The notes beneath the pieces were generated by a model. The model ran no database searches and was not told where the DNA came from. It saw only the letters and a program-made list of their open reading frames with translations. Below are positions 16,684 to 57,443 of a stretch of DNA of 60,610 bases, piece after piece. Numbering within the stretch: the stretch's first letter is position 1; the number at the start of each line of letters is the position of its first letter. The translations under genes and the position numbers were made by a program. The DNA is from an uncultured Bacteroidales bacterium (GTDB lineage Bacteria > Bacteroidota > Bacteroidia > Bacteroidales > UBA932), in the NCBI GenBank assembly GCA_946625485.1, contig CAMOTB010000002.1:1-60610 (forward strand), in the 5' to 3' direction.

Positions 16684-18867
16684 TCACCACTTGATCTGCA
16701 CCTTGACTCCGTCCGGCGAATTGTCGAAGCGGACGAGGCTGGTCTTGCTCTCTGCGTCCCATCCGGTTTCGTCCACGCATTCCTTGCCGTCGATCAACAC
16801 GCTCTTGGGGCGTGAGGGGAGCAAGATGCGGGAGACGTTGACCGTCTCCATCGGGCTCTTGGCCACATAGGAGAAACTCCGTCCTTTCTTGACGATGTCA
16901 TAGGCGCGGCTGGCGGCAGCCAGGATCTTGGGCGCCTTGCCGGCGGCCTTGACATTGTAGAAGAAACCTTGTGTGCCGGGGAGGATGTCCTTTTCCTTAT
17001 AGACGGGCAGCTCCGGATCGTAGAGGTCGATCAGCAGGCCGGACATCCGGTAAGGCTCCTGGTTGACGCTCTCGTCCAGGACGGCCACCAGCTCGTAGGG
17101 GCCGCGGGTCAGGCGGAAGTTGTTCTTATATTCCACGATGCCGCCGTCGACGGCGTACATCTTCTCCACGGCTTCCATCAGCCTGGCGTCGGCATCCGGA
17201 GTCATGACAAACTCCTTGGGGTCCTGACGCAGGATGCAGACAGCGCCTTCCCCCACGGGATAGACGCCTTCCTCGGCACCGGCGGGGATGCCCATCAGGC
17301 CAAAGAGGTGGTCAGCAGGGGCGGCGAAGTGGTTGTCGCCCGTATTCCACCATTCCTGGACGCTCTGGAAGGGATCGGTATCACGGCTGCAGTAGAGGAT
17401 GCGGCCGCCTTTCTTGACCCATTCCACGAGATGCGTGTGTGCCTCGGGGTCCATCGGCTTCATGTTGGAGTAGGTCATCACGAGGACCTTGACATCCTTG
17501 AGGGCCTTTTCGTAACCGACGTTCTCGATGTGGGTGATCCCGACCGGGATGCCCCGCTTCAGGATAGGCATCGCCATTCCGTAGAAGTTGCTCAACTGCG
17601 GGTCTTCGTAACCGGCATGGGTGGGGAAGCGCTGGAACATCAGGGAGTTGCCCATCAGGACACTGATCCCCTGCGTCCCGGAGAGCTTGTTCTCGGACAA
17701 GGGCATGTCGTTGAGCGTGCCGATCATCACCTGCATCATCGTGGAGTAGTCCTTGGGGATGCGGATCCGCTCCTCGCTGTCCGCACTCTTGCGGTACAGG
17801 CCTTCGTAGATGCGCTCCGGCCAGGGCATGACCTCGTAGTCAGCGATGTCGGGATAGAGCAACTGGGCCGTGAACGTGGCGTGATAGTTCTTCTTGTAGT
17901 CGACCCAGTCACGCGGCCAGTCTTCGATCGGGTCGGTCAGGAACCAGACCCTTCGCCCGGTCGGTGCGGTCATCGACTCCATGCAGCCGTATTCCAGGTA
18001 GGCGGTCTCGAAGGTGCGCTCCTTGCGGACCCCGTTGAAATAATCGGGCTCACGGGAGGTGCCGGTCCAGACCTGCGCGATGTAGCCGTCGATGCCGGGC
18101 ATCGAAGCCAGGCTCGCCTCGGGGCTGACGATATGCCACTGGGAATAGTTCAGCAGGGAATGGGTCGGGACATAGCATTTCACGTCCAGCCCCTTGGACT
18201 TGCCATACTCCTTGGCGAAGGAGGATACCTCGTCCAGCGCGCGGTAGTAAAGGTGGTACTTCAGTTTGCTGGAGAGGTAAGTGGCTTCAGGCGACTCGTG
18301 CTGCGGGCGCCAGGGACTCTTGTAGTAATCTTCCCACTCCCGCTTGAAAGCTTCGCTGTAGCCGCCCCAGCACCAGAATTCGGGCTCCTCGAAATAGAGG
18401 GCCTCCACGCCGGCGTCGATGACGCGTTTGATCTGGGTCTCTTTGAAGTACTTGAGGTAGTTGAGGCTCGGGACGATGTAGGGGACCATGCGGCCGTGCC
18501 AGATGGTGTCACCGCTGACGCGGACTTGGCCTTCGTCCAGGTGCATCTTCCCGTCCCATTTGCCCGTGAAATAGTCCTGGTAGCTGCCCCAAGCGATGCC
18601 GGTCATGAAATCGACCCGGTAGCCCCGGTCCCGCCAGGATTGGATCCTCTCCTCGACGGCGGAGCGGGCCCGGCGGCTGCGGTCGGAGGGATTGCCTCCG
18701 ACACCGTAGACCATCACGGCATCAGCCCGGTTGTCGATCGTGGGCTTCCAGGGCTGCGAAGACTGAAAGGTCGTCTTCACGCGATTGACGTCTTCGGCAT
18801 TCTGGGACACCGAGCACGCGGCCAGGCATCCCAGAGCCAGAAGACATAGAGGAAGGACTCTTTTCAT
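16684..18867 (-). CDS. putative glycoside hydrolase lipoprotein (TIM-barrel-like, family unassigned)
   Basis: Lipobox LGCLAAC; acidic motif EALYFEEPEFWCWGGYSEAFKREWEDYY; C-terminal trimerisation-like domain (VLVMTYSNMKPMD...LVEWVKKGGRILYCS). Last gene of a SusCD operon. Confidence 0.6.
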   Translation of the reverse strand: MKRVLPLCLLALGCLAACSVSQNAEDVNRVKTTFQSSQPWKPTIDNRADAVMVYGVGGNPSDRSRRARSAVEERIQSWRDRGYRVDFMTGIAWGSYQDYFTGKWDGKMHLDEGQVRVSGDTIWHGRMVPYIVPSLNYLKYFKETQIKRVIDAGVEALYFEEPEFWCWGGYSEAFKREWEDYYKSPWRPQHESPEATYLSSKLKYHLYYRALDEVSSFAKEYGKSKGLDVKCYVPTHSLLNYSQWHIVSPEASLASMPGIDGYIAQVWTGTSREPDYFNGVRKERTFETAYLEYGCMESMTAPTGRRVWFLTDPIEDWPRDWVDYKKNYHATFTAQLLYPDIADYEVMPWPERIYEGLYRKSADSEERIRIPKDYSTMMQVMIGTLNDMPLSENKLSGTQGISVLMGNSLMFQRFPTHAGYEDPQLSNFYGMAMPILKRGIPVGITHIENVGYEKALKDVKVLVMTYSNMKPMDPEAHTHLVEWVKKGGRILYCSRDTDPFQSVQEWWNTGDNHFAAPADHLFGLMGIPAGAEEGVYPVGEGAVCILRQDPKEFVMTPDADARLMEAVEKMYAVDGGIVEYKNNFRLTRGPYELVAVLDESVNQEPYRMSGLLIDLYDPELPVYKEKDILPGTQGFFYNVKAAGKAPKILAAASRAYDIVKKGRSFSYVAKSPMETVNVSRILLPSRPKSVLIDGKECVDETGWDAESKTSLVRFDNSPDGVKVQIKW

Positions 18868-18871: not shown

Positions 18872-19696
18872 TTAAGGGATATTGACTTCCTTCACTTCGG
18901 AGTAGTTGTAGCGGCGGTTGCCGGTACCGGCCGGAGTACCGTAATTGATACGGGCGGCGGCGCGGATGAAGACCTTGCGGCCCGGCCGGATCGTACCGTT
19001 GGAATGGATCGTGACGGGCTGTCCGAGCAAGTCCTCGAAGGCGGCGCCGGCATACTCGTTCACGCCGTTCCAGGAGGTATAGCTGTTGCCGGCTCCCAGG
19101 GTGTTGGAGTAGCTGACATACAAGCGGACATCCGTTACATTGGCCATGGCGTCGCTGTAGCCGCCCATCGGCTCGACCTTCTCGCGAAACTCGTCGCGGG
19201 TGACGGCACGGGTCACCTTGACCTGGGCCGTGATCTGGCCGCCGCTGACGACCGGCTCACCGACGATTTCGACGTTGAGGAAAGGCTGGACCTTGAATTC
19301 GACGTTGGTCGTACCCTTGATGTCGGTCGTGACCGATCCGTCCTCGATCAGTTCTCCGTCGGCAGTCTCGCGGACGATGGGGATGAACGGACCGTCCACG
19401 CGGATGTTGTAGTTGCCTTTGAAGATTCTGGTGTTGTGGTAGGTGCCGTCATCGCTGCAGTAAAAGTCCTGCGGAGTGACGTTGTCTCCGTAGCTGAGCT
19501 CGACGAGGCGGATCCGGATGCCGTTGGAGCTGGTCTCCGTCAGGACGGGGTTGCCGGTGGCGACATCCACGACCTTTACGTTGAGCGTCTCTTCCGGTGC
19601 GTCGTAGTTGTCCAGCTTGAAGAGGGAGCAGGACGAAAGACTCAGTACGAAGAATGCTCCCGCCAATGCATGCATTAGTATCTTTTTCATATTCAT
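18872..19696 (-). CDS. DUF3823-like lipoprotein downstream of SusD
   Basis: Lipobox LSLSSC; LDNYDAPEETLNVKVVD... and GTYHNTRIFKGNYNIRVDGPF typical of DUF3823 proteins next to SusD. Confidence 0.75.
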   Translation of the reverse strand: MNMKKILMHALAGAFFVLSLSSCSLFKLDNYDAPEETLNVKVVDVATGNPVLTETSSNGIRIRLVELSYGDNVTPQDFYCSDDGTYHNTRIFKGNYNIRVDGPFIPIVRETADGELIEDGSVTTDIKGTTNVEFKVQPFLNVEIVGEPVVSGGQITAQVKVTRAVTRDEFREKVEPMGGYSDAMANVTDVRLYVSYSNTLGAGNSYTSWNGVNEYAGAAFEDLLGQPVTIHSNGTIRPGRKVFIRAAARINYGTPAGTGNRRYNYSEVKEVNIP

Positions 19697-19707: not shown

Positions 19708-21780
19708 TTATCTGTTGGGCTGCTGGTCGATCACGTCGCTCTTGCTGACCTCTCCGCCAGGGATGGCGAAGTAGTAGTTGACAGGGGAGTAACTGAAGGT
19801 CTTGCGGTTGTCGAACGCAATGTCGAAGAACCATTTGCCAGCCTGGGTGGAATAGAATGAATGGAATCCCTGGAAAGCGAACTGCGAGCCGTCGCCGAAG
19901 GTATTCTTGTCCTTCCGGACGCCCCAGAAACCGTCGCGGTTGTCCTCGTCGAGGACTCTCCAGCGGCGCAGGTCCCACTTGGTCTTGTGCTCGTAGGCGA
20001 GTTCCTTGCGGCGCTCCTTGCGGACGATGTCGCGGCTCTCGTTGGTGCCGGCCAGTTTGACACTGATGACATTGGCACCGGCACGACGCTGGATCGCCTG
20101 GATGGATTCCGTCGCCACCTGCAGCATGTCGTCGCCCACGGGTGAAGGCTGGCCGGCGATGGAGAGTTCCACAGCGGCTTCGGCCGCCGCCAGCAGGACA
20201 TCGGCATAGCGCATCAGGATGAAGGGCTGGTCCGAACGGCCTTCTCCGATCTCACTGAGCGGACGCTCGGGATCAAGGTACTTGCGAAGGTACAGGCCCG
20301 TGAAGGTGGACTCGGCGTTGGAATAGAAGGGCCCATTCTCGCCGGCCGCGTTCATGGATACCTCCTGGCCCGTCTTCGGGTCGGTGAACTTGACGACCGG
20401 GTTGGAAGATCCGACGTTGCTGGCCAGATACAGGGTCCGGTTGTTGGCATCCGTATAAGCGGACAGGTGATAATACTGCTGGGAACGCTGCGAGTAGCTG
20501 TAGCTGGGCTTCAGCACCGGGATCGGGACGCTGCCGGTATAGACGCCGTCGCGGACCTCGATCACGTCCTTCTTGAATACGTCGCCCGGGAAGATGATGT
20601 ATGCCCGCAGACGCGGCTCAGCCGTCTTGAAGAAGTCCATCGGCGTATCATAGAGGAGATAGTTGCCGTTGGAGTGGGCCGTACCGTCCGTCGTGCGGAT
20701 GGTGCCGTCCGCATAGCGGTCGAAGCCGTCGAAGAGCTCCATGAAGTCCTCGGTGGGGCAGGTGCCGGCCGACAGCGGCATACGGTAGATCCAGGGCGAG
20801 CTGTAGGCGTCCAGTCCGTGGGACAGGGTCGGATAGGAGTACTCCTTGACCAGGATGTTCTCGGGGCTGGAGAGATCGCGCCACATGTCATTCATGTTGT
20901 TGTATTGGGCTTCGCGGTCGCCCTCGACCCATTTCTTCATGTATAGGGAATACTTGCCGGAAGCGATCACTTCCTTGGCGGCCTTGTACGCTTCGGCGAA
21001 ATACTTGTTGGAGCAGGCCTGCCACTCATTCTCGGCAAAGCCGATCACGCGGACGCCGGTCTTCTCGCCCAGTCCGGTAAGGCGGCCGGTCACCTGCTCG
21101 TTGTACTTGGCGACGGAGCCGGCATACAGCATGGCTTCGGCCTTGAAGGCCAGGGCGGCGTACTTGTTGGGCGTATCGGTGAAAGTGGAGGATGCCGGCA
21201 GCAGGCTGACGGCCATATCCCAGTCTTCGAGGATGAAGTCCCAGGTGTCCTTCTCGGAGGAACGGGCTACTTCGATGTCGCCATCGAAGGGATAGGTGAT
21301 CTCGTTTTTGACGATAGGTACGCCCCCGAAACGGCGGGCCATCTGCGTGTAGGCATAGGCCCGGACGAAATACCCTTGCCCGAGGAACTCGTTGTAGGTG
21401 AGTTCGGGATAGTTCTCCTTGTAGTTGGGGAGATTCTCGATGAGGTGGTTGGCGTCGCGGATCAGGACGAAGGCCTTGCCCCACCAGGGCGTGTCTTCGT
21501 TTACGAACGAAGCGCAGATGCCGTCACGGTTGAGGGCTTCGCCGGTTCCTTCGATACCGAGGCTTCCGAGCCAGGAGTTGCCGTTGAAGCCCCACTGGGC
21601 CATGTACTTGAACTCTTCCCAAGGCATCTGGCTGTATAGCCGGGACAGGTAAATGGACATGCCGGCCTGGTTGGACAGCAGGGAGTCGTCGGAGACGATG
21701 TTCTTCGGCGGGATATCCAGGCTGACGCAGGCCGTCGCTGCGAAGAGCGTGAAAATCAAAGTGTAGAATATCTTTTTCAT
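19708..21780 (-). CDS. RagB/SusD family lipoprotein
   Basis: MKKIFYTLIFTLFAATACVSLD; ILMRYADVLLAAAEAAVEL; RRKELAYEHKTKWDLRRW. Confidence 0.92.
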   Translation of the reverse strand: MKKIFYTLIFTLFAATACVSLDIPPKNIVSDDSLLSNQAGMSIYLSRLYSQMPWEEFKYMAQWGFNGNSWLGSLGIEGTGEALNRDGICASFVNEDTPWWGKAFVLIRDANHLIENLPNYKENYPELTYNEFLGQGYFVRAYAYTQMARRFGGVPIVKNEITYPFDGDIEVARSSEKDTWDFILEDWDMAVSLLPASSTFTDTPNKYAALAFKAEAMLYAGSVAKYNEQVTGRLTGLGEKTGVRVIGFAENEWQACSNKYFAEAYKAAKEVIASGKYSLYMKKWVEGDREAQYNNMNDMWRDLSSPENILVKEYSYPTLSHGLDAYSSPWIYRMPLSAGTCPTEDFMELFDGFDRYADGTIRTTDGTAHSNGNYLLYDTPMDFFKTAEPRLRAYIIFPGDVFKKDVIEVRDGVYTGSVPIPVLKPSYSYSQRSQQYYHLSAYTDANNRTLYLASNVGSSNPVVKFTDPKTGQEVSMNAAGENGPFYSNAESTFTGLYLRKYLDPERPLSEIGEGRSDQPFILMRYADVLLAAAEAAVELSIAGQPSPVGDDMLQVATESIQAIQRRAGANVISVKLAGTNESRDIVRKERRKELAYEHKTKWDLRRWRVLDEDNRDGFWGVRKDKNTFGDGSQFAFQGFHSFYSTQAGKWFFDIAFDNRKTFSYSPVNYYFAIPGGEVSKSDVIDQQPNR

Positions 21781-21796
21781 ACTGCTGATCTCCATA

Positions 21797-24700
21797 CTAG
21801 AAGTTGATGTTAAGACCGATCGTGTAGGACTTGTTCAGCGGGTAGAGACGGCCGTAGGAGTCGGCCGGGTGCTCCGGGTCGATGTACTTGACCTTCGTCC
21901 AGGTGAGAGGGTTGTAGGCATTGGCATAGATCCGCAGCCCCAGAGTCTTGAAGGCCGGGATCTTCGGCAGGGTGTAGCCGATCTCGACGGACTTCAGACG
22001 CAGGTAGTTGACGGGCTGCGTGTTGAAATCACTGTTGGCGTATGCGGAGTTGCCGCCGAAGGCATAGGTGCCGGGGATCCACTTGAGGGACTGGTCATAG
22101 ACATCGACATAGTCCTCCGTCTCCGGATGCCAGCGATCCCAGAACTGCTCTAGCATACCGCCGCCGTGCTGGCCCCAGACGCCGAGTTGCGGTTCGCCGA
22201 ACTGTACGCTGCCGAGGGCGGAACCCTGGAAGAGGATGCTGAAGTCGAGGCTCTTCCAGCCGCCGTCGATCGCCAGGGAGTAGTTGAGCCAGGGGGTCTG
22301 GTCGAAGGTGTACGGGTGGATGTCGTTGCTGTCAATGCGGCCGTCCTCGTTCCAGTCCAGATACTTGAAGTCGCCGGGCTTGGTGCCGTTGGACTTGTAC
22401 ATGTCGTAGGTCCAGATGTCTTCCCAGCTGGTGAACTGGCCTGCGGTCTCATAGCCGAACACGACGCCCTGGTAACGGTTGTTCATGTTGTCGTTGCGCC
22501 AACGGTCGTAGGAGTTGCCGAACTGTTCCGGCGTGCGCTGGACGTAAGTCAGCCACTTGTTGCGGGTGATGGACATCATCGCCTTGGCCTGGTAGCGGAA
22601 GTCTCCGATGCGGTTGCGGTGGCTCAGCTCCAGCTCAAAGCCCATGTGGCTGTCGCTGTTGGCGTTGAAGTTCGGTGCGGTGGCACCCACGATGGTCGGG
22701 ACCTCCGAATTCATGCGTGCGTACAGGCCGGTCCGGAGGCGGTGGAAGTAGTCAAAAGTGATGCCAAACAGACCGTCCCAAGCCTCGAAATCGACACCGA
22801 CGTTGAAGGTCTTGTTGGTGTACCAGGTGATGTCCTTGTTGGCCAGGGCCAGCGGTGTGGCGCTCATGACCCAGGAACCCAGATAGTAAACGGGACCGTA
22901 GCCGGTGTAATAACCGTTGTCTGACAGGTTGGCGGCGGGATAGGTGTAGCCGGTGGCCCACTCGTAGTCGGAGCCGTCGTAACCGGTCTCACCGTAGCTG
23001 ACGCGGAATTTCAACTGATTGATGAAGCTCAGCGCGCCGTCCTTGAACCAAGGCTCCTGTGAGACTCTCCACGCAGCGGAGACCGAGGGGAAGAAGCCCC
23101 ACTGGTGGCCCGGATAGAAACGGGAAGACGCGTCGTAGCGGAACTGGCCTTCGATCAGGTAACGCTCGTCGTAGTTGTAGTTGAGACGTCCGATCAGGGA
23201 CCGGTAAGAGTATTCATACAGCGCGCCCTGAGAGACTTGGTGGTCTTCAGCGGTCAGGCCGGTGAAGTACGGGGTGGCAAAGGCGAGGTTGCCGAATCCG
23301 GTGAATCCGTTGGCATCCTTCTTCTGGATTTCCCAGCCGGTCATGGCGCCGATCCTGTGCTTGCCGAACTGGCGGTCATAGTTGAGGATCGCCTGGAGCA
23401 TGAGGTTCCGGTAGGTGTTGTCCGTGCGGGTCAGCTGGCTGGGGGAGGAGGCGGCGTACAACTTCGTGTCATAGGAGTCCGTTTCTGCGTTGTAGGCGTA
23501 CTGATAGTATTCCTTACGGTACTTCTCGTACTGGTTGAAGCGGAAGTCATAGCTCGCCATTCCCTTGATTGAAAGTCCCTTGAGGACATCGGTCAGCGTA
23601 CCGAAATCATAGGTAAGGGAGGCGTTGGCGTTGAAGTTCTTGTTGTTGTTGGTCCGGTGTCCGGAAATGTCGGAGTAGATACGGGCGACGGAGTTCCAGT
23701 CCAGTTCGAGATCCTGGTAGTTGAGCATCGTCTGCTCCGGATCGGCATACGCCTTCCAGATGGTGCTCTGCTTCCACCAGTAGCGGATGATCAGCTCCGG
23801 ATCGTCAATCGGGTTGTGAAGGTCTTCCGCATAACCGGAGAGGTTGAGATTGAACTTCATCCCGTCGAAGAGCTCGGAAGTGACATTCGCGCGCAGGTTG
23901 TATTTGTTGTAGTTGGTGTCGCCGCTCTTCCAGAAACCTTCCTGGAAGAAATAGCCCAGACCTACGTAGAACTGCGTCTTCTCGCTGCCGCCGCTGATGG
24001 AAACATCGTGGCGGCTCTGCGGGGCGATGTTCTGGATGATGAGGTCGTTCCAGTTGGTGCCGGTGAGCTTGCCGCTGCGGTATTGCTCGACCACTTCCTC
24101 CGGGAATTCGCCGACACCGCCTTCGAAGCCGCCCCGGTTGCGCTCGTTGACAAGCAGGACCGAGTTGAGGGCGCTCATCTGGCGGGGCAGGCTGGCCGGC
24201 GTCTGGAAGGTGTAGCTTCCGTCATAGCTGACGCGGGTCTTGCCGGCTTGTCCGGCCTTCGTCGTGACGAGGATGACACCGTTACCGCCCCGGAGGCCGT
24301 AGATGGAAGCGGCGGCATCCTTCAAGACGGAGACGTTCTCGATATCCGAAGGGGAGAGACGCTGGAAGTCCGCGATCTCACGCGGCGTGCCGTCGATGAC
24401 GACGAGCGGGCTGCCAAGTCCGCGGATATCCATGGATGCGGCATACTGGCCCGGTTCGGCCGTCCGCTGCCAGACACGTACGCCGGCCACGCGGCCCGTC
24501 AGCATGTTCTGGGGGTTCTCCGTTTTGGTTTTGATCATCTGGTCGCCGCCTACGGCTGCAATGGCGCCGGTCAGGGAACCGCGCTTCTGGGTGCCGTAAC
24601 CCACGACCACGACGCTTTCAAGGAAGGTATTGTCCTCGGCGAGGACCACGTTGATGACGCCCCGGCCGTTGACGGGGATCGCTTGGGAGGCCATACCGAC

Positions 24701-24931
24701 GGAGGAGAACTCCAGAATGGCGTCGGCGGGTACCGTGATGCTGTATTTTCCGTCCAGGTCTGTCGGAACACCCGTCGTGGAGCCTTGGGCGATGACGCTG
24801 GCTCCGATGACCGGCTGTCCGGACTGGTCGGAGACGACACCGGAGACCGTGACCCGGTTTTGGGCAAATGAGAGTGTGCCGGCCAGGATCAGCCACAACA
24901 CGCTCATCAGTTTTACAATACGTTTGTTCAT
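21797..24931 (-). CDS. SusC/RagA family TonB-linked outer membrane protein
   Basis: VSGVVSDQSGQPVIGASVIAQGSTTGVPTDLDGKYSI; VVVVGYGTQKRGSLTGAIA; DAAASIYGLRGGNGVILVTTK. Confidence 0.95.
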   Translation of the reverse strand: MNKRIVKLMSVLWLILAGTLSFAQNRVTVSGVVSDQSGQPVIGASVIAQGSTTGVPTDLDGKYSITVPADAILEFSSVGMASQAIPVNGRGVINVVLAEDNTFLESVVVVGYGTQKRGSLTGAIAAVGGDQMIKTKTENPQNMLTGRVAGVRVWQRTAEPGQYAASMDIRGLGSPLVVIDGTPREIADFQRLSPSDIENVSVLKDAAASIYGLRGGNGVILVTTKAGQAGKTRVSYDGSYTFQTPASLPRQMSALNSVLLVNERNRGGFEGGVGEFPEEVVEQYRSGKLTGTNWNDLIIQNIAPQSRHDVSISGGSEKTQFYVGLGYFFQEGFWKSGDTNYNKYNLRANVTSELFDGMKFNLNLSGYAEDLHNPIDDPELIIRYWWKQSTIWKAYADPEQTMLNYQDLELDWNSVARIYSDISGHRTNNNKNFNANASLTYDFGTLTDVLKGLSIKGMASYDFRFNQYEKYRKEYYQYAYNAETDSYDTKLYAASSPSQLTRTDNTYRNLMLQAILNYDRQFGKHRIGAMTGWEIQKKDANGFTGFGNLAFATPYFTGLTAEDHQVSQGALYEYSYRSLIGRLNYNYDERYLIEGQFRYDASSRFYPGHQWGFFPSVSAAWRVSQEPWFKDGALSFINQLKFRVSYGETGYDGSDYEWATGYTYPAANLSDNGYYTGYGPVYYLGSWVMSATPLALANKDITWYTNKTFNVGVDFEAWDGLFGITFDYFHRLRTGLYARMNSEVPTIVGATAPNFNANSDSHMGFELELSHRNRIGDFRYQAKAMMSITRNKWLTYVQRTPEQFGNSYDRWRNDNMNNRYQGVVFGYETAGQFTSWEDIWTYDMYKSNGTKPGDFKYLDWNEDGRIDSNDIHPYTFDQTPWLNYSLAIDGGWKSLDFSILFQGSALGSVQFGEPQLGVWGQHGGGMLEQFWDRWHPETEDYVDVYDQSLKWIPGTYAFGGNSAYANSDFNTQPVNYLRLKSVEIGYTLPKIPAFKTLGLRIYANAYNPLTWTKVKYIDPEHPADSYGRLYPLNKSYTIGLNINF

Positions 24932-24945: not shown

Positions 24946-26409
24946 TTATTGTTTATTTTCAATCAGATGCTTGGCCAGTACCGCGTATTCTGCGGCAAAG
25001 GCGAAGGTGAACATTCCTTCCACGTTGTTGCGGGAACGGTCTACGTTCCATCCGGCCAGCAGGCTGGAGGGGAGCATGTCCTTGTACAGGTAGTTCTCCC
25101 AAGCGTAGTCCAGGTTGTCCTGGAAGGACTTGAGAGGTTTCTGCGCTCCGCTATAGGCGGGGTATGCGGCGGCATAGCCGCGCATCAGGACGCCGTTGAA
25201 CCAGTTGTTGAAGCCGGAGATGTCGTAGGTATAGAGCCCTTGCTTGACCGTGCCGAGCTTGGCAAAGTAGCCGAAACTCTTGTCGGTGAGCGCCTTCAGG
25301 TCATCCAGATACTGGGTGTCCTTGGTGACGCGGTACAAGTCGGCTGCCCCGGAGAGCATCGTCCCGCTGTTGTAGCTGAAAGCCGGTCCCACCCGGTCGT
25401 AGAGCGGCGTGTGCTTGCGGTATTGCTGACCGTCCACCGTCTCGTACTCGGGTTTGCCGCCACCGCTGCGGTAGCCGCCCATCATGTCGTCATAGACGCC
25501 GTCCGGGCGCAGCAGATGACTCTTCTGCCAGCGATAGACCTTGACCGCCCATTCCAGGTAGGCGTCGGCCTTGCGCATCGTTTTCTTCGAGCGGGTACCG
25601 TCCGGGTTTACGATGCCGAAGGTGACCGTATTGTCTTTGCCGGCATAGATTTCTGCCAGGGCGACGAGCGGGCTGACCATCGGGCCGTTGCTGCAGGCAT
25701 GTTTGGTGACGTAGCCCGGCCCCCAGGGGATGCCGCCGTTCTCTTGTCCGGCTGCGTCGAGGGTGGTGTCCCATCCGTCCATGACGTAGGCGGTCAACGA
25801 TTCGGCTTCAGTCAGGAAGCGGGACTGGCCTGTCACCTTCCAGGCGCCGATCAGTTCGCGGACCAGCCACATCTGGTCGTCATAGACGTTGAGGACACCG
25901 CTCACGTCGGCCGTTCCGGGCCCCTCGCCGCGGTTGACTGCGTAAGGATGCCAGGTCGCCGTCTGGGTGTACGAAGTCAGCGTCAGGGTCCCTTTGTAGA
26001 ACTGGGCTCCTTCGTACAACTTGTCCAGCTGCGTGCAGAAGTGGGCGAACTTTTGCTCGTACAGGCTGCTTTCGCCGGCTTCTTTCTGCAGCTGCAACGC
26101 TTCCAGGATGGCGACAGTCGCTTCGATGGCCGAGGTGTACATCCAGATGCTGCCAGTCTCGGAGGAACGGCTCCCGCTGTACGGATTGTAGTAGCGTGAC
26201 ATCTTGCTGCCCTCGAAGTAGTTATCGAAGGCGGCGTCGGCCAGCGTGATGGCCCTGCGTAGGTTGGCGCCCGGCGTTCCGGCGGTTTCGGCCGGCGTGA
26301 CGGGTTTCTCTTTTCCGGACTCCGGATCGGACGGTTTGTCCGAGCAGCTCCCGGCCGTCAGGATGACGGTCAGCAGGGTGGATGACAACAGGGTAAGGAA
26401 TTCTTTCAT
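24946..26409 (-). CDS. GH76 family glycoside hydrolase (alpha-1,6-mannanase-type lipoprotein)
   Basis: Lipobox LTAGSC; VYDDQMWLVRELIGAWKVTG (paired Asp), NGGIPWGPGY, NSGTMLSGAADLYRVT typical of GH76. Confidence 0.85.
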   Translation of the reverse strand: MKEFLTLLSSTLLTVILTAGSCSDKPSDPESGKEKPVTPAETAGTPGANLRRAITLADAAFDNYFEGSKMSRYYNPYSGSRSSETGSIWMYTSAIEATVAILEALQLQKEAGESSLYEQKFAHFCTQLDKLYEGAQFYKGTLTLTSYTQTATWHPYAVNRGEGPGTADVSGVLNVYDDQMWLVRELIGAWKVTGQSRFLTEAESLTAYVMDGWDTTLDAAGQENGGIPWGPGYVTKHACSNGPMVSPLVALAEIYAGKDNTVTFGIVNPDGTRSKKTMRKADAYLEWAVKVYRWQKSHLLRPDGVYDDMMGGYRSGGGKPEYETVDGQQYRKHTPLYDRVGPAFSYNSGTMLSGAADLYRVTKDTQYLDDLKALTDKSFGYFAKLGTVKQGLYTYDISGFNNWFNGVLMRGYAAAYPAYSGAQKPLKSFQDNLDYAWENYLYKDMLPSSLLAGWNVDRSRNNVEGMFTFAFAAEYAVLAKHLIENKQ

Positions 26410-26423: not shown

Positions 26424-28310
26424 TTAGTCCATCTCGATGCCGTAAATGCAGAGTTTCTGCTCTCCGTCTCTCGTGGCGCCCTTGTACACGCCGAGGGCAA
26501 TCACGACATCCTGGCCCTTGTAGGCAGACAAGTCGTACACAAACTCAGCGTAGTCCTTCGGGTCGCCTGCTCCGGACTCGTGGAGGAATTGCCAGCAACC
26601 GTTCTCTGTAGCGCTTGCGCTCCGGGCCGTGTTGGAAACCGGATCGAGGGCTTTGGCCTGGCAGGTGGCGACCGGCACAACCGTCACGCGGAATACGGTT
26701 GGGGCCGTGCTTGAGAAGGTGCGCACGCGCAGGTGCAGTTTGTCATTTGCGTCTGTGATGGAGAAGCGGTTGTACAGGTAGCTTTCCGGGGTGTTGTAGT
26801 TGGCGTCGATGCCGCTGCGGGTCTTGATGGTGTAGCCTTCGCCGTTGATCGGTTCGACATCCTTGTTGACATACTGGAGCGTCCAGTTGACGGCCAGGTG
26901 GTTGGTCCCGGTCCACATGTTGTAGCCCTGCTGGCTCCAGGGATTGTGCTTGCGGCGGGCACTCTTTACGTCAGGCTGGCCGCCGCCGTCGATGTTGAGA
27001 TTGGAGTTCAGGCCGAGGTTCATGCCGGTGAAGGAGGTTTTTTCGTTGACCGTCATGGACGTGAGGTTCTCCTTGGTGAAGCAGCGCCAATTCGCGCCTT
27101 CGACGGGTGTGCCGGGGAGGGCGTCGTCGCCGCTGACAGCCGAAGGAGCGAAGCAGACGCGCCTCACGGGGAGGTGATAGTCACCGCCTGCCTGGGTGTA
27201 GTAGATGCCGAGGGCGATCACCACATCCTTGCCGACGAACTTGCTCAGGTCGAAAGAGTAGGAACTGTAGTTGCCGTCCCCGTGCGTCTTTTCACCGATC
27301 TTTTCGGGCTTGACTGCGCCGTCGGTGATATTGAGGACCTGCACGTCGAAGTGGATCGGGTCGGCTGCGGTCGCACTGTGGGTGCGGACCAGCGTGCTCA
27401 TGATCTTGTTGCCCTCGTCGATATGCTTGCGGCCGTAGAAGAAGGCGTTGAAGTTGTCGCCGTCTCCGCGTTTACCGTACCCTCCGTGGGTGACCAAGGC
27501 GCAGCCTTCCGCCTCATAGCGGTAGTGGCCGTAGGACTGCCAGGCGGACATGTAGCCGCAGGACCAGTCATTGATGCCGCCGAATCCGGTCGATCCGCGG
27601 TAGTTGTTGCCGTACCAGACTTCGGCGTCAGCGGCCTGCTGCCATGTCAGGCTCGGGAAGACGAAGCCGCCACCCAGACGGACGGTCGAAACGGTTGCAG
27701 TGCCGTCGATGAATTCGGAGAGCTTGACCTTTTTGGTATAGGAACTGCCGTCGGCCGTGGAATAGGTCAGGGTGTAGTCCTTCAGGGTCAGGCCTTCCAG
27801 CGCGAAAGAGCCATCCTCGCCCGTGGTTACGGAAATGACGCCGTTGGAGACTTGTACGCCGGGGAGCGGTTTTCCGTCGGCCGCGTTGAAAACGTATCCC
27901 TTGATGACGGCTTCTGAAAACTCGAGGCGGGGATTGATCTCGATGGTCCCGCCTTCGGTAAAGCGTGCGGCCTCCAGGGTGTAGGCCACGGTAGCGAATC
28001 CCTGTTTGGCAAATGTGATGAAACGCGCATTGGACGGCACCTCGGCGACGGAGAAGGATCCGTCAGCACCGGTCTTGGCCGTCTTGCGCACCTCCCGTTG
28101 GGCGTTGGTGCCCATGAAGGTCACATCCACATCGGCAAGCAGGTTGTCAAAGGTATCCATGACGGTACCTTTCACCGTCGCGGTTCCGATCACGCTGTCA
28201 TCCCAGGTCCCGGCCTCTTCCTTGAGGTCGTTGCAGGACAGGGCCAGGAGCGCGCTCAGCGCCGTAGCGGCAAAGAGAGTGAAGACTCTCAAATTCAGCT
28301 GATGCTTCAT
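26424..28310 (-). CDS. surface lipoprotein with carboxypeptidase-regulatory-like domains and two CBM-like repeats (putative glycan-binding protein)
   Basis: Lipobox LLALSC; TATVKGTVMDTFDNLLADVDVTF and AVIKGYVFNAADGKPLPGVQV; repeated YSFDLSKFVGKDVVIALGIY / FVYDLSAYKGQDVVIALGVY. Confidence 0.65.
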   Translation of the reverse strand: MKHQLNLRVFTLFAATALSALLALSCNDLKEEAGTWDDSVIGTATVKGTVMDTFDNLLADVDVTFMGTNAQREVRKTAKTGADGSFSVAEVPSNARFITFAKQGFATVAYTLEAARFTEGGTIEINPRLEFSEAVIKGYVFNAADGKPLPGVQVSNGVISVTTGEDGSFALEGLTLKDYTLTYSTADGSSYTKKVKLSEFIDGTATVSTVRLGGGFVFPSLTWQQAADAEVWYGNNYRGSTGFGGINDWSCGYMSAWQSYGHYRYEAEGCALVTHGGYGKRGDGDNFNAFFYGRKHIDEGNKIMSTLVRTHSATAADPIHFDVQVLNITDGAVKPEKIGEKTHGDGNYSSYSFDLSKFVGKDVVIALGIYYTQAGGDYHLPVRRVCFAPSAVSGDDALPGTPVEGANWRCFTKENLTSMTVNEKTSFTGMNLGLNSNLNIDGGGQPDVKSARRKHNPWSQQGYNMWTGTNHLAVNWTLQYVNKDVEPINGEGYTIKTRSGIDANYNTPESYLYNRFSITDANDKLHLRVRTFSSTAPTVFRVTVVPVATCQAKALDPVSNTARSASATENGCWQFLHESGAGDPKDYAEFVYDLSAYKGQDVVIALGVYKGATRDGEQKLCIYGIEMD

Positions 28311-28346: not shown

Positions 28347-30257
28347 TTATTTGATGGTTGCCAGGTATTTGATGGTCTGGTCCTTGCGCTCGGCCATCCG
28401 CAGGCGCCAGATCAGTTCCTGCATGGAAACGGCCTGGAACTTCGGATTGCTGCTGAGGGCGCTCTTGCACATGGCGGCGGCATCCCCGGCCTTCCGCTCG
28501 TCGAATTCGCTCCAGGCATGGACGCAGACGGTGGAGAAGCTTTGCTCGGCGGTCTCATAGGCTTTCATGCTGTCCGCGACGCCGGCCGGTGTCGTCTGGC
28601 CCTGCCAGATCATGTATTTGGCCGTGATACAGGGGATATCATAGCCTGCCTTGTTGGTCAGCCAGATGATCTTGCCACTGCCGCCCGTGTAGGGTGAATA
28701 CTGTACGGCCGTGATCCCCTCCAACTGGTCGTTGGCATCCACAAAGGCTTGCAGAGCCTCCTTGGTCTTGGTGGATGCCAGGTCCTTGGCCATCACGTGC
28801 AGGACCTTGATGCCGTGCTGGCGCATGTGGGCGGCGGTCCGCTGGGCGAGGATCTTGAGGTTCTCCGCGCGGTGGCTGGCGCTCGTACCGGTCGTGCTGT
28901 AGGTATCGACATAGAAATAGCCGCCGCCGAAGGTCTCCATGATGGTGCATTCCGGAGAAGGCTGCTTCTGGACCAGGTAGGGCAGACGCGTCGGCATCAG
29001 CTGGGTCAGGGACTGGGTCCCGATCTCGATGGCGATCTTCGTGGATGAGGAACTGGGAATGCAGTAGTAGTTGTCCTCGAAGTTGTCCGTGATGATGTAC
29101 TGGTAGTTGTCGCCGTCCGTCAGGAAGAAGGAATAGAAGTTCTTCTTCTTCCCGTAGTCGATGCTGCGGGGGTTGATGGACTTGAATCGCTCGCTGCTCT
29201 GGCGCGTCTTGTAGTAGCGGGAAGTGAGGTTCTCGTTGTAGCTCCAGTCTGCGGCGAGCATCAGATGGCCGTGGCGCGACACGCGGTCCACGAAGACATC
29301 TTCACCTACGCCCTGCTCCCAGCCGAGGACCTGCGAGTTGGGCTTCAGCCAGTCGAGGACCTGGTCGAACAGTTCGACATTCTGTCCTGAGCCGGGATTC
29401 TCCCATTGTTTGTTGAGGTTGAGGATGAACAGGTTGTTCATGATGGCGTAGTCGCGCAGTTCTCCGCATTTGACCGGCATCACGACGAGGCAGTCGTTGC
29501 TGCACCGGTCCTTGAAGCTGTCGAAAGCCTGCTGAAGCGTCATCTTGCTGCAGTCGTACTTCATTGTATAGCCTGCGGCGTTGAAATAGGCAGAGTCCCG
29601 TACGTCGACGATGATGGAGTTGTAGACGTGTGACGCAACCGTGGCTACGTTGCCGCTCTCCGGGTTCCGGACCAGGTCGGTCAGGACATAGCCGTCGAAC
29701 AGGTGCTTGACGGTGACAGGGTATCCGTTCCAGGTCCCGTATTCCTTGGTGGCCAGCTCGAGAGCCGTCTGGCGGCCGATCTGGCGGGTGGTCCCGTCCA
29801 GTTCATCCTGTTCGGCTTTGTAACCCCGGCCTCCGGCTTCGATCCAGATGCCGATGTTGGTCTTGCCTTCCGCGCAGGCCCGGTTGACCAAACCGGCGAT
29901 GGACTGCATCAGCAGGTAGTTCTGAAGGCCGGTCTCTACTCCGGTCCGTCCGGGGTCTTCCCGGCCGCCGTAGTCCTGATAGACCATGTACCAGTAGAGC
30001 TCCGGTTTGATTTTGGGCTCGGGGAGATAGAACTGCCCGGCATCTTTAACAGGGTCGTAAAGGTCTGCGTAGTTGACGGCATCCGGATTGGACTCTGGCA
30101 GGACGAAATCGCTGCCGGGATCGGGAGTCGGGGAAGGATCCGTTTTTCCGCCATCTTCCGTAGTCCCTCCTGTTACGTTGATTACCTCCGGTTCTTTATC
30201 ACAACCGGTCAGGATTGCCATGATCAAAAGCAATGAAGTCAGGAAACGAAGTTTCAT
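28347..30257 (-). CDS. GxGYxYP-like domain lipoprotein (putative glycoside hydrolase)
   Basis: MKLRFLTSLLLIMAILTGCDKEPE; QSIAGLVNRACAEGKTNIGIW; FFLTDGDNYQYI; ETFGGGYFYVDTY. Family call is tentative. Confidence 0.55.
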   Translation of the reverse strand: MKLRFLTSLLLIMAILTGCDKEPEVINVTGGTTEDGGKTDPSPTPDPGSDFVLPESNPDAVNYADLYDPVKDAGQFYLPEPKIKPELYWYMVYQDYGGREDPGRTGVETGLQNYLLMQSIAGLVNRACAEGKTNIGIWIEAGGRGYKAEQDELDGTTRQIGRQTALELATKEYGTWNGYPVTVKHLFDGYVLTDLVRNPESGNVATVASHVYNSIIVDVRDSAYFNAAGYTMKYDCSKMTLQQAFDSFKDRCSNDCLVVMPVKCGELRDYAIMNNLFILNLNKQWENPGSGQNVELFDQVLDWLKPNSQVLGWEQGVGEDVFVDRVSRHGHLMLAADWSYNENLTSRYYKTRQSSERFKSINPRSIDYGKKKNFYSFFLTDGDNYQYIITDNFEDNYYCIPSSSSTKIAIEIGTQSLTQLMPTRLPYLVQKQPSPECTIMETFGGGYFYVDTYSTTGTSASHRAENLKILAQRTAAHMRQHGIKVLHVMAKDLASTKTKEALQAFVDANDQLEGITAVQYSPYTGGSGKIIWLTNKAGYDIPCITAKYMIWQGQTTPAGVADSMKAYETAEQSFSTVCVHAWSEFDERKAGDAAAMCKSALSSNPKFQAVSMQELIWRLRMAERKDQTIKYLATIK

Positions 30258-30320
30258 ATCGGATATCTTAAGGTTTTCTTGATGTCTTCTAATTTTCAAG
30301 TTTGAATTTCGTGGGGGGTG

Positions 30321-30372
30321 GGTTAAGAATTGTATTAATTAACGGTTAATTTTTAAAATAAAATGGGTTAAT
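30321..30372 (+). repeat. direct-repeat array GGTTAAG / GGTTAAT / GGTTAAT at 23- and 22-bp spacing (degenerate TATTAAT at 30333)
   Basis: Read at 30321, 30344 and 30366 in the intergenic region between the divergent GxGYxYP-like gene and the membrane regulator gene. Confidence 0.7.
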
Positions 30373-30413: not shown

Positions 30414-32933
30414 ATGAGAAGTCGTCCTGTCATACGTCTCTTTGTTTTGCTGGTGTTGTTCCTCCTGCCGGGGACCGTTCAGGCTCAGGGGCTTCGCCTG
30501 CGCGGGCTTGAGAGCACGATCGGTGAACGCTCCTCACTGGAGGTGTTCCCTTATCTGAGGCCTTCCTTCCGGGATACCCTTTCCCTTCGATTCGAAGTCC
30601 GTCTGGAGGCCGACCGTTTCGGCTTGGGCTATTTATGCCGGATAGAAACGGACCCGGAGCATCTGGCGCCGGTAATCAATCTGCTGTTTGAGCGGGTTTC
30701 CGATACTTGGGTGATCCGTATCATCTGGGAAGGGCAGCGTTTCCTGGCAAGCCTGCCGGTATCTTCGTCTGATCTGATGACCGGACGTTGGTTTTCGATG
30801 GCCGTCCTGCTAGATCTGGAGCATGATTCCGTGTCGCTGTCCGTTGATGGCCGCTTGAGTGTGACAGGAATCGTCGATCTGCCTTCTCGGATTCGTCCTC
30901 GGATTGTCTTTGGACGGTCCGGCGACCTGACGGACGTACTTCCTGTTTCTCTTCGGAATCTCCGGATCTCGGGCTGCCGGAGAGCGTTCTTTTTCCCGCT
31001 GGCTGAGGCGAATGGCAGCTATGCCCATGGATCCGGACGGCTTATTCCCGCTGAGGTGACCAATCCGTATTGGCTGAGAGAGGATGCGTCTCGTTGGAAG
31101 CCTTTTTTCTCCCACTCTTCTCCTTTGTATCAATGTGTGGGCTATGATGTTTCCCGTCATCAGTTGTGGAGCTTTTCCCGTGATTCGCTCCATTTGATTT
31201 CATTGTCCCGTCAAGGCCGTACCGATTCGCGTTTTGAGGAGCCCTGTCCAGTCCCAATAACATTAGGTACCAGTTTCGTGGATTCCCGGACACGTAACCT
31301 GTATGTCTATGAGATGTATCAGACTGGTGAGCAGATTGCACATGGGACGCCTTCCTTTGCCCGGCTGTCTCCCGGAAGCCTTTCTTGGGAAGCACTAGGT
31401 ACGGATGCGTTCCCCATCCAATATCATCACCACAACGAATATGTTGATGCGGATTCTTCCCGCTTGCTTGTTTTCGGTGGTTACGGCTTCCGGAAGTACA
31501 ACGGAGATTTTTTCTGTATTACCTATGATCCCGAAGGATCTGATCCTTTGCGGTGGAAAATGCTTCCAAAGGTGCATGGCGACCCCTTGTGGCCTCGTTT
31601 TCTGGGTGCGATGGGATACGATCCGGCAGACGGGAAACTCTATGTTTTCGGAGGGAAGGGAAATGAAAGCGGGGAGCAGATCGTCGGTGCCCAGTATCTG
31701 TATTCCCTGCATAGCGTCGATCCCGAAACCATGGAGTGCCGGAAATTGTGGCAGATTCCTTGGTCGGGAGACAATATCGTGACAGGTCGCGGGATGGTCA
31801 TAGACGGAACGGGGCATTTTTATGTGCTGGGCTATTGCGAAGCTTATACCCAGACCCGTCTGCAACTGTACCGCTTCTCGATGACTGATGGTTCGTTTGA
31901 GATCCTTGCCGACCCAATCCCGTTTTATTCGGACCGGATTTCCTGCCTGGCCAACCTGCATTTCGATCCGGAACTCTCAAAGATGATCGCGGTGGTGGAG
32001 GAATCCAAGGATGACATCCGCTCCCATGTCGCCGCTTATATCCTGGATTATCCGCCCCAGCCGGCCGTGTTCCAGCCCAATGATATCCGGATCCGTCGTG
32101 TGCCGCTGCTGGCTTGGTTGTCCGGATTCCTTTTCTTGCTGTGTCTTATTCTCGGGATCCGTTATTTCCGGATCCGGTCACGCCGGGTTAGTAATCCTTT
32201 GTCTTTGCCGGAGGATGACCCCCGTCCCAACAGTGTCCTTCTCTTCGGCGGCATCACGATGCGAGACCGTGCGGGGAGGGATATAACGGCACAGTTTACA
32301 GGTAAGATCCGCCAGATGTTCTGCATCCTGCTGCGGCGCGGGGAGCAAGGCATGTCGTCCAAGCACATGAGCAGCGTCTTGTGGCCGGACCGGGCAGAGG
32401 GGGAGACGAAAAATGTCCGTGGCGTGACGGTCAACAAGTTACGCAAACTGCTCTCCCAGATGGATGGCATTACCGTCGTGTCGCGCGAGAAACGCTTCTT
32501 CCTGGAGATGAAGAAGCCCTTCCGCTGTGATTATGTCCGCTTCAACGAGATCCTTTCCGACCGGCATCCCGACATGGACCGGCTGATCCGTATCGTAGCA
32601 CGCGGACCGTTCCTGATGGAGGAAACCGATCCCGTGTATGATAAAATGAAGGAGACTGTCGAAGGACAGATCGACCGCGTGATGACAGCGGAATTGCCGC
32701 GCCGCTATTCCCTGCGGCAGTTCTCGGCTTGCCTGACTTGCGCCAATATCCTGTTTGATCTGGATCCCCTGAACGAAGAAGCCCTTTCCTATTCCATCCG
32801 GTCCCTGCTGGCGATGGAGAAAGACGAGGACGCAAAAGCCCTGTACACGCGCTTCATCACGCGGTACAGGAAAGATTACGGCGAGGAGTATCCCCAGAGC
32901 TACGAGACCCTTTCGGGCCTCCGCCAGGAGTGA
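30414..32933 (+). CDS. membrane-bound one-component regulator: periplasmic LamG/Kelch-like sensor, one TM helix, cytoplasmic winged-helix + BTAD/TPR-like (SARP-like) output
   Basis: Signal peptide; Kelch-like LLVFGGYGFRKYNGDFF and KLYVFGGKGNESGEQ; TM VPLLAWLSGFLFLLCLILGI; cytoplasmic LLFGGITMRDRAGRDITAQFTGKIRQMFCILL...SSKHMSSVLWPDRAEGETKNVRGVTVNKLRKLLSQMDGITVVSREKRFFLEM resembling SARP/OmpR-type wHTH; helical C-terminus. Confidence 0.7.
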   Translation: MRSRPVIRLFVLLVLFLLPGTVQAQGLRLRGLESTIGERSSLEVFPYLRPSFRDTLSLRFEVRLEADRFGLGYLCRIETDPEHLAPVINLLFERVSDTWVIRIIWEGQRFLASLPVSSSDLMTGRWFSMAVLLDLEHDSVSLSVDGRLSVTGIVDLPSRIRPRIVFGRSGDLTDVLPVSLRNLRISGCRRAFFFPLAEANGSYAHGSGRLIPAEVTNPYWLREDASRWKPFFSHSSPLYQCVGYDVSRHQLWSFSRDSLHLISLSRQGRTDSRFEEPCPVPITLGTSFVDSRTRNLYVYEMYQTGEQIAHGTPSFARLSPGSLSWEALGTDAFPIQYHHHNEYVDADSSRLLVFGGYGFRKYNGDFFCITYDPEGSDPLRWKMLPKVHGDPLWPRFLGAMGYDPADGKLYVFGGKGNESGEQIVGAQYLYSLHSVDPETMECRKLWQIPWSGDNIVTGRGMVIDGTGHFYVLGYCEAYTQTRLQLYRFSMTDGSFEILADPIPFYSDRISCLANLHFDPELSKMIAVVEESKDDIRSHVAAYILDYPPQPAVFQPNDIRIRRVPLLAWLSGFLFLLCLILGIRYFRIRSRRVSNPLSLPEDDPRPNSVLLFGGITMRDRAGRDITAQFTGKIRQMFCILLRRGEQGMSSKHMSSVLWPDRAEGETKNVRGVTVNKLRKLLSQMDGITVVSREKRFFLEMKKPFRCDYVRFNEILSDRHPDMDRLIRIVARGPFLMEETDPVYDKMKETVEGQIDRVMTAELPRRYSLRQFSACLTCANILFDLDPLNEEALSYSIRSLLAMEKDEDAKALYTRFITRYRKDYGEEYPQSYETLSGLRQE

Positions 32934-32969: not shown

Positions 32970-34847
32970 TTATTGCTGCTCCAGATAATAGCGCAGGAGT
33001 TCGAAGTAGGAGGGCGCGTCGAGGACGACGTAGTTTTTGCTCTGCGCTTCGATGTACTCCTTGACGCCGGCGTGCCAGGTGGGGGATTTCAGGATGGTAC
33101 GGATCCAGTAGAAGGGGAACTCCGGATGCTGGCTGAGCATGGAGACGGCCTTTTGGCCCGCGTCTTCGATCCGCGTGTCGCCGATGCTGGCGCCGCTGCA
33201 ACGCAGGATGGGCATCCCGTCCACCAGCATTGCCTGCCGGCCGTCCGGAAGCTTCTGGGGGCCGATGCCGTTGGGACTGAAGCTCGCATAGCTCTTGAAT
33301 CCTTCCAGGGACATGCCGGGGCCGTTGCCGTCGATGACAAAGCCCGTCACGCTGAGTCCCCACTGCTTGAAGAAGGGCTTGTTGTGCTCCGCCCAGGCAG
33401 TTACGCCCGAAGGTAGGCCGCTGACGGGCCGGGGTTCTTCGAGCATCCCGGGATTGAGATAGCCCGCCCCATTGTCCCCGGCCGCGAAGTAATCGGCCTC
33501 CGTCGCCGTCGAGCGCAGGTAGTCCATCACCATCGGAGCACGGCGCGCGAGGGACGGGTTGATGCTCCACATCATCGGGACCGTCCCCCGGGCGGGATCC
33601 TCCCAGAGCAGCGGCATCTGCTGGTAGATCCAGGCTGCGGCATCGTAGTCGCCTACATAGAACAGGATGAATTTCTTGGTCGAACTGACCTTCCCGTTGG
33701 AGAGGATCAGGCCCTTGGCTTTCAGGTCTTCCACCGTCGTCCAGCCTTGGGGATACTCCGGCTTGACGGGGTAGTGCTGCCAGAAAGAGGCGTTGGCCAT
33801 CGCGCCGAGCGAAGCGGCGTCGGCATCCTTGTAGGCATTGTAGGCGCTCAGGAGCTTAACGGTTTCCCATTCGGTCTGGGCGGCTTCGTGCTTGCTCTTG
33901 TACGTTACGCGGCTGTTGTTGGAGTATTTGTGCGCCCAGGGTGCAAAGCCTCCAACGTGGCAGAAACGCGTCCCGCCATTGAGCTTGTAAATCTCGCTGA
34001 AGATGGACTGGAACATCGCCCGGTCGCCGTTGCCCTCGGTCGGGGCGTCGGAGGCCGGCTCGTCGTCCCAGGGCGAAAGGTCGAAGAAAAAGCCCTTATG
34101 GGAGACGAAATAGTCGTGGTTGGTGAGCTGGTGGTGGTTCATGCCGGCGTTGCCGGGAGCCGTCATCCAGTACTGGTCGATGTAGTAGGCGGCCGTCTCG
34201 CCGCTGCACTTGCCGGTCTTCAGGTAGTTGTCCACGGCCCAGCGGTAGGGCTCCAGCTTGGTGTGGAACTTGGAACTCCCGTCCTCGTTGACCAGCCAGA
34301 CCTTGACCGGATAGTCCCGGGCTGTCAGGCGGGTGTAGATGCTGCCCGGTCGGGGGTCATAGCGCACGGCGACGAGATTATCGGCGCCTGCGACAGTGGA
34401 AGCGACGTTGGAGGTTGATGCGATCGCCGGATCATAGACGACTAGGCCCTGGATCTTGTCGTGGAATGCGTCCAGCACCTTGACCGGGTCGTACATCGTG
34501 ACGACATTCCGGCCGTCGAGCCATTTGCCGTCCCCGACGCATTTGTCCCACCAAAAGTCGTCCACGTTGATCCCGTTGGCGACGACATACTTGATATAGA
34601 GCCGGGGTTCGTCCCGGTTGACGATGCCTTGCAGGGTCGCGGCCAGGTGCATCGTTTCCCAGAGCCGCACGACACCGACCGAGTCGCGGGAGGTGATCTC
34701 CCGCCAGCGGTTCATGTCCAGGACGACGATGTCACCGTCGTGGATCTCGGGGGCGGAGGCCGGCGTGAAGTCGACCGTGGGTTGGCATCCGCAGGCCGCG
34801 AGCAGGGCGGCCAGGGCACAGCAGAGTATCTTAGTTCCAGCCTTCAT
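32970..34847 (-). CDS. GxGYxYP domain-containing lipoprotein (putative glycoside hydrolase)
   Basis: Lipobox LLAACGC; LWETMHLAATLQGIVNRDEPRLYI; GDNGAGYLNPGML; FYVGDYDAAAWIYQQMP. Confidence 0.7.
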   Translation of the reverse strand: MKAGTKILCCALAALLAACGCQPTVDFTPASAPEIHDGDIVVLDMNRWREITSRDSVGVVRLWETMHLAATLQGIVNRDEPRLYIKYVVANGINVDDFWWDKCVGDGKWLDGRNVVTMYDPVKVLDAFHDKIQGLVVYDPAIASTSNVASTVAGADNLVAVRYDPRPGSIYTRLTARDYPVKVWLVNEDGSSKFHTKLEPYRWAVDNYLKTGKCSGETAAYYIDQYWMTAPGNAGMNHHQLTNHDYFVSHKGFFFDLSPWDDEPASDAPTEGNGDRAMFQSIFSEIYKLNGGTRFCHVGGFAPWAHKYSNNSRVTYKSKHEAAQTEWETVKLLSAYNAYKDADAASLGAMANASFWQHYPVKPEYPQGWTTVEDLKAKGLILSNGKVSSTKKFILFYVGDYDAAAWIYQQMPLLWEDPARGTVPMMWSINPSLARRAPMVMDYLRSTATEADYFAAGDNGAGYLNPGMLEEPRPVSGLPSGVTAWAEHNKPFFKQWGLSVTGFVIDGNGPGMSLEGFKSYASFSPNGIGPQKLPDGRQAMLVDGMPILRCSGASIGDTRIEDAGQKAVSMLSQHPEFPFYWIRTILKSPTWHAGVKEYIEAQSKNYVVLDAPSYFELLRYYLEQQ

Positions 34848-56380: not shown

Positions 56381-56395
56381 GGATGGTATAGGTTT

Positions 56396-57409: not shown

Positions 57410-57427
57410 TATATGAGGTCGGTTAGA

Positions 57428-57443
57428 AGTCAATCGATTTACT
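57428..57443 (-). promoter_or_regulatory. putative LacI-type operator (plus strand AGTCAATCGATTTACT)
   Basis: Best copy of the palindrome AGTnAATCGATTnACT, between the -7 box and the PfkB start. Confidence 0.65.

Follow-up and report, generated by a model that had tools for sequence, protein, structure and literature searches.

What does an 839-amino-acid membrane protein encoded between two PULs sense, and which genes does it control? The question arises from a 60,610-nucleotide stretch of DNA from an uncultured Bacteroidales bacterium (the window), in which a sequence-only reading had picked out this protein as a candidate glycan-sensing regulator. PUL regulation in B. thetaiotaomicron is described as being of three types, SusR-like, hybrid two-component (HTCS) and ECF sigma/anti-sigma, and the alpha-mannan loci of this species are under the control of HTCS that include BT2628 and BT3786 (PMC3878776). 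The recognised class of transmembrane transcription regulators is enriched in Bacteroidota and in Bacteroides consists mostly of hybrid two-component proteins, and a survey of such regulators has neither Kelch nor SARP/BTAD in its text (PMC10269533). Here, we put forward, with a probability of roughly 0.8, that the protein is a membrane-anchored SARP that serves as a one-component regulator of an alpha-mannan-type PUL. This reading is built on the topology, the folds of sensor and output, the association with PULs and an operator of characteristic geometry, each read from sequence or from a structural model, and from these we infer the ligand, the binding to DNA and the activation.

A periplasmic sensor and a cytoplasmic output joined by one membrane helix

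Relatives of the regulator were found at 135 loci in genome contigs, and the best 80 were kept. Since these share 28–41% identity with it, most of them over near full length, the 839-aa ORF is not a chance one. By hydropathy, the protein has a signal peptide and one further transmembrane stretch at residues ~560–587. Lysine and arginine are enriched C-terminal of this helix in 62 of 67 non-redundant homologues (mean 5.1 versus 2.3 in 15 residues), which by the positive-inside rule places the C-terminus in the cytoplasm and not outside. The full-length model has a mean pLDDT of 81. Pfam revealed no histidine kinase, receiver or AraC domain in the regulator, and nothing was matched in NCBIfam. 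Hydropathy, the positive-inside rule, Pfam and the model thereby bear out the earlier proposal of a signal peptide, a Kelch propeller, a single membrane helix and a cytoplasmic output that lacks kinase and receiver. In the broad sense the protein is a transmembrane regulator, with a DNA-binding domain and a transmembrane helix in one chain that is free of phosphorelay domains.

Table 1. Coordinates of the regulator, its domains, the predicted operator and the divergent operon in the window.
Feature	Position	Strand	Details and basis
Membrane-anchored SARP-like regulator	30414..32933	+	839 aa; ORF and Bacteroidota homologues
Signal peptide	30414..30488	+	Residues 1–25; hydropathy, signal-peptide-like segment in 62/67 homologues
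N-terminal beta-sandwich	30489..31088	+	Residues ~26–225; model secondary structure; LamG/lectin-like by fold only
Kelch beta-propeller	31089..32051	+	Residues ~226–546; Pfam Kelch, fold match to LZTR1/KLHDC2
Single transmembrane helix	32103..32171	+	Residues ~564–586; hydropathy, positive-inside rule, model helix 565–586
OmpR/SARP-type winged helix	32226..32525	+	Residues ~605–704; model, PDB fold match to AfsR/EmbR
BTAD-like helical (TPR-like) domain	32526..32930	+	Residues 705–839; fold match, BTAD Pfam in homologues, TPR profile
Predicted operator	30320..30349	+	GGGTTAA 30320–30326, GTATTAA 30332–30338, CGGTTAA 30343–30349; spacings 12 and 11 bp
Fourth GGGTTAA	30365..30371	+	22 bp beyond third repeat; sequence
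GxGYxYP putative glycoside hydrolase, first gene of divergent operon	28350..30257	-	Pfam PF14323
Carboxypeptidase-regulatory-like protein, ~613-aa family	26427..28310	-	Pfam; operator-bearing first gene in many other loci
GH76-family protein (alpha-1,6-mannanase family)	24949..26409	-	Pfam PF03663, 3e-19
SusC-like transporter	21800..24931	-	Pfam
SusD-like lipoprotein	19711..21795	-	Pfam
DUF3823 protein	18875..19696	-	Pfam; neighbour cluster in 36/51 loci
Conserved 727-aa protein, last operon gene	16687..18867	-	In 30/51 loci and 11/61 genomes

In the sensor, the Kelch family PF24681 was matched at E=8e-11, under the family's own cut-off, and at up to 1.6e-24 in homologues, and Kelch families were recognised by Pfam in 51 of 55 family members. 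In line with this, the full-length model matched the Kelch propellers of LZTR1 (TM-score 0.70) and KLHDC2, with scores of ~0.6–0.7 by target length. The same fold search also returned laminin-LG and lectin-plus-propeller sialidases. The LamG-like N-terminus that had been proposed is therefore upheld in part: the model has an all-beta sandwich there with these fold matches, but a search for LamG in the N-terminal domain gave no useful match by sequence. We also observed a gene (L114:5062-6561, minus strand, the same gene as in L011) that encodes the N-terminal domain, the membrane helix and the SARP output without a Kelch propeller.

The output domain is modelled with the fold of a SARP

When the output domain was modelled separately, using a 66-sequence alignment, the model reached a pLDDT of 95 and a pTM of 0.89. 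Its sole fold matches in the PDB at E<=0.001 were AfsR (8hvr, 8k60) and EmbR (2fez, 2ff4), and these span the whole of the winged helix and helical domain, with TM-scores of 0.58–0.65 by query length. Thus, in the model, the C-terminus is a DNA-binding fold, composed of an OmpR-type winged helix followed by a BTAD as in SARPs, which agrees with the winged helix and BTAD/TPR-like tail proposed from the sequence. By sequence profile the picture is different: Trans_reg_C scored 13.3 bits in the window protein against a Pfam cut-off of 26.2 (E=0.09), BTAD had no Pfam match there, and even at E<=0.1, of 55 relatives 9 had a BTAD match and 3 a Trans_reg_C match, so that the Pfam cut-offs for the two domains would not class the protein as a SARP. 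Since the output is barely visible to sequence profiles, automatic annotation ends at 'Kelch'.

In its parts, the regulator resembles several known systems. With AfsR of Streptomyces coelicolor and EmbR of Mycobacterium tuberculosis it has in common the winged helix and BTAD fold over its whole output. SARPs, however, are cytoplasmic and carry the DNA-binding domain first, whereas here the SARP-type output (residues 605–839) comes last, preceded by signal peptide, periplasmic sensor and membrane helix. The protein had also been called ToxR/CadC-style. Like ToxR, CadC and TcpP, it combines sensing outside and DNA binding inside in one protein with a winged helix and a single membrane helix, and the one-component membrane principle stands. 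In ToxR and CadC, however, the DNA-binding domain is N-terminal; the order of domains is reversed here, a BTAD follows the winged helix and the output is of AfsR/EmbR type, which sets the protein outside that family in the narrow sense.

The same layout of an N-terminal periplasmic sensor, a C-terminal DNA-binding domain and linkage to PULs is found in the HTCS of Bacteroides, whose periplasmic sensor is likewise a propeller, but the regulator is without their kinase, receiver and AraC domain. The sensor and output families of SusR-type regulators differ from those described here. In general plan, SusR-type regulators are similar, being membrane proteins with a periplasmic sensor and a cytoplasmic DNA-binding domain (PMC3878776).

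A family linked to PULs with alpha-mannan enzyme families

A search of genome contigs with the single protein gave no confirmed relative; the relatives were obtained with a four-member alignment, and an eight-member alignment was too divergent for patterns. The best 80 of the 135 loci, which are partly redundant at genus level, come from Dysgonomonas, Bacteroides, Alistipes, Sphingobacterium, Algoriphagus, Chryseosolibacter, Ohtaekwangia, Echinicola, Chitinophaga and Mucilaginibacter. As the output domain was detected at E<=1e-10 in only 8 of 300 sampled genomes of the phylum, the family is widespread yet sparse. The window's own genome (a 55%-complete assembly of 1.83 Mb) encodes two diverged paralogues of the regulator. 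Separately, two SARP-like Bacteroidota proteins (L120:8304-11492, plus strand; L121:7791-9131, minus strand) are apparently soluble, with either a SARP domain at the N-terminus or an N-terminal half that is TPR-like.

A neighbourhood survey had been suggested as a check on the association with SusCD. In 51 non-redundant loci flanked on each side by 8 kb or more, an alpha-mannan hydrolase family (GH76, GH92 or GH125) lies within 10 kb of the regulator in 50, and a core PUL gene directly adjoins it in 47; core PUL genes are absent from the vicinity of one Mucilaginibacter locus (L104). Clustering of the neighbours revealed one conserved PUL, made up of SusC, SusD, DUF3823, GH76, a ~730-aa protein, a ~613-aa carboxypeptidase-regulatory-like protein, GH92, a GtaA-like protein and GH125. 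Moreover, when 61 genomes (that of the window and 60 relatives) were compared, the four with a close homologue of the regulator, and no others, had a homologue of the window's GH76 protein at E<=1e-20; were the two independent, the chance of such a coincidence would be 1 in 521,855.

GH76 and GH92 belong among the alpha-mannan enzyme families (PMC4321491), and Pfam's own description places GH125 with them. The substrate of the PUL is therefore likely to be an alpha-mannan-type glycan, an assignment that rests on enzyme families, and the ligand of the sensor would be narrowed to glycans of this type. In addition, conservation of the propeller comes close to that of the winged helix (mean consensus 0.64 and 0.70, respectively), which suggests a shared ligand. 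Given this conservation and the presence of GH76, GH92 or GH125 at nearly every locus, we consider it unlikely, if far from negligible, that the sensor responds to another glycan, an envelope protein or a transporter complex, even though Kelch propellers are not established glycan receptors, the core families (GH76, GtaA-like, DUF3823 and the 727-aa protein) could serve another mannose-containing glycan, and BT2949, a homologue in family GH76, showed no activity towards substrates from yeast mannan (PMC4321491).

A predicted tandem-repeat operator with SARP-like promoter geometry

Alignment of the divergent intergenic regions revealed repeated GGGTTAA heptamers. In 65 upstream regions, pairs of G[AG]TTA at distances of 11, 12 and 23 bp numbered 37, 27 and 26, compared with 0.08, 0.34 and 0.3 in shuffles, while other distances were near background, bar a small excess at 22 bp (7 versus 0.26). 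Triples of heptamers were present in 28 of the 65 regions versus 0.0 in shuffles. On the coding strand, the consensus of the predicted operator reads TTAACCC-N4-TTAACCC-N5-TTAAYCN, that is, three heptamers spaced 11 and 12 bp. A weight matrix made from 25 sites, none of them from the window, was then used to scan 1.66 Mb. Among the 60 matches listed (at most four per locus), a single one was intragenic and all but one (L043) pointed towards the gene that followed them downstream. If regulator and PUL share a strand, with the PUL downstream (e.g. L052, L067, L069, L070, L074, L083, L085, L099), the site fronts the PUL with its strand flipped. Because the site shifts and flips together with the PUL, the operator tracks the PUL promoter and not the regulator gene.

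With sites oriented on the PUL and ties broken towards 9 bp, the -7 box of Bacteroidota, TAnnTTTG (PMC7366714), has its best match starting 8 bp past the 3' heptamer in 26 of 40 sites and 9 bp past it in 12. At least five of its six bases are matched within 6–11 bp in 27 of 40 sites, as against 2.5 in shuffles. This geometry resembles that of SARPs, which bind heptameric direct repeats 11 or 22 bp apart, the 3' repeat lying 8 bp from the -10 element (PMC10936776); three heptamers have been described at several SARP sites (PMC10972967). Both the heptameric direct-repeat operator and the 8-bp promoter spacing are found at many loci of the family, so that output fold and operator geometry point independently to the same SARP mode. 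The differences from SARPs are that the repeats are 11 and 12 bp apart, that the promoter is of the Bacteroidota -7 kind and that the predicted target is a PUL and not a set of antibiotic genes. The 11-bp heptamers are also distinct from the mannan HTCS motif, which consists of two 16-bp sites with a 5-bp spacer (PMC3878776).

Since the position of the repeats would suit an activator and a blocking repressor alike, the regulator might instead sit on them over the -33 region when ligand is absent and be released by the glycan; we regard this as improbable, because the fold match is to SARPs, for whose activators an 8-bp spacing is typical (PMC10936776), and because recruitment explains better than simple blocking why a spacing of 8–9 bp is kept in 38 of 40 sites.

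The predicted operator also recurs in genomes that played no part in defining it. In 15 further genomes (mostly Cytophagales, with one Chitinophaga) with no regulator-adjacent site, none of which was used in the matrix, the exact pattern gave 12 matches in ~97 Mb versus one for a reversed control. Ten of the 12 lie, correctly oriented, shortly upstream of a carboxypeptidase-regulatory-like predicted first PUL gene; an exact match was absent in 5 of the 15 genomes. In the 61 genomes, the exact pattern matched twice beside the regulator and twice at apparently unrelated places, with five matches for the control; alone it is too noisy, and position beside PUL genes was therefore taken as the criterion. 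The operator can thus stand far from the regulator gene, but it is very improbable that it belongs to another factor of the same PUL and that the Kelch protein regulates something else or acts outside transcription, as the repeat geometry suits the regulator's own output fold, distant paralogues have 11/12-bp repeats near their own genes too, and no other conserved regulator cluster lies next to most loci (a response-regulator cluster is near 7).

Second operator-like sites were seen upstream of the ~730-aa or GH125 gene (L086:12620, L090:12648, L102:14351, L092:15087), which suggests a regulon with more than one promoter. Many loci also have a single inverted heptamer (GATTAA/GGGTTA on the operon strand) and a T-rich tract ~20–30 bp upstream of the tandem repeats.

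A proposed route from periplasmic glycan to PUL transcription

The membrane-anchored SARP would work as follows. The periplasmic beta-sandwich and Kelch propeller would bind an oligosaccharide freed from an alpha-mannan-like glycan, and the signal would cross the single transmembrane helix and line up two or more SARP domains in the cytoplasm. The coupling is modelled most simply as a pairing of these domains, induced by ligand, on the tandem repeats; proteolytic release is a possible alternative. The SARP domains would occupy the three tandem heptamers 8–9 bp upstream of TAnnTTTG, over a poorly conserved -33 region. SARPs activate through contacts with sigma region 4 and RNA polymerase, and by analogy with AfsR the bound domains may recruit the polymerase, switching on an operon for the CarboxypepD_reg protein, GH76, SusC, SusD and DUF3823, often with GH92 and GH125. 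Activation, like the ligand, is here what we infer.

No account of Kelch-SARP membrane regulators came to light in the literature searched, which excludes bioRxiv preprints altogether and the greater part of subscription journals. We lean towards the view that membrane-anchored SARPs make up an apparently undescribed class of PUL regulators that spans the phylum, and that its main branch belongs to alpha-mannan-type loci and combines Streptomyces-SARP geometry with the Bacteroidota -7 promoter. If so, one polymerase-recruiting mechanism would be at work in two distant phyla, here with a fused periplasmic sensor, and a mode of activation associated with antibiotic regulation in Actinomycetota would extend to nutrient sensing from the inner membrane. 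It would also add to the SusR-like, HTCS and ECF types a further PUL regulator, one that goes under the sole label of Kelch in standard domain searches. The class comes with a predicted ligand class, operator and regulon, which can be tested in cultured strains.

The predicted operator and gene neighbourhood in the window

In the window, the predicted operator stands between the start of the divergent operon (30257) and that of the regulator (30414), and reads TTAACCN on the coding strand of the operon. Its matrix score is 19.7, the next best in the window being 8.9, and no shuffle reached this score, whether of the window (200) or of the intergenic region (5000). It is also the sole match, at up to one mismatch, in its own 1.83-Mb genome (chance expectation 0.00). 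The window copy is weaker than most sites, with GTATTAA as its middle repeat, and has no convincing -7 box at 8–9 bp; the best candidate, 15 bp away, matches 4 of 6 bases.

The predicted target is the divergent operon from 30257 to 16687, seven genes with gaps of <40 bp. Judging from this sequence, it is with this left operon, where the window's only operator stands, that the regulator belongs. That it might serve both flanking PULs was considered and rejected, there being one strong operator, before the left operon only. Of the earlier description of a PUL-flanked gene with no other local HTCS, the second part holds for the window genes scanned, none of which is a hybrid two-component gene, but the operator ties the regulator to one side. 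Two LacI-type regulators are encoded at 4188-5195 and 13507-14484.

The 727-aa protein that ends the operon had no match in Pfam, NCBIfam or the PDB, and its family is a candidate enzyme of mannan PULs. GxGYxYP putative glycoside hydrolases flank the regulator on both sides (28350-30257 and 32973-34847, the latter on the minus strand), one in each adjoining PUL. Elsewhere in the window, a 1357-aa SusC-like protein with a C-terminal OmpA domain, an unusual fusion, is encoded at 5326-9399 (plus strand) and followed by a SusD gene. Finally, genes for a D-lyxose isomerase, a mannitol dehydrogenase and a PfkB kinase at 54495-57433 (minus strand) possibly form a mannose/lyxose route near GH92 genes.
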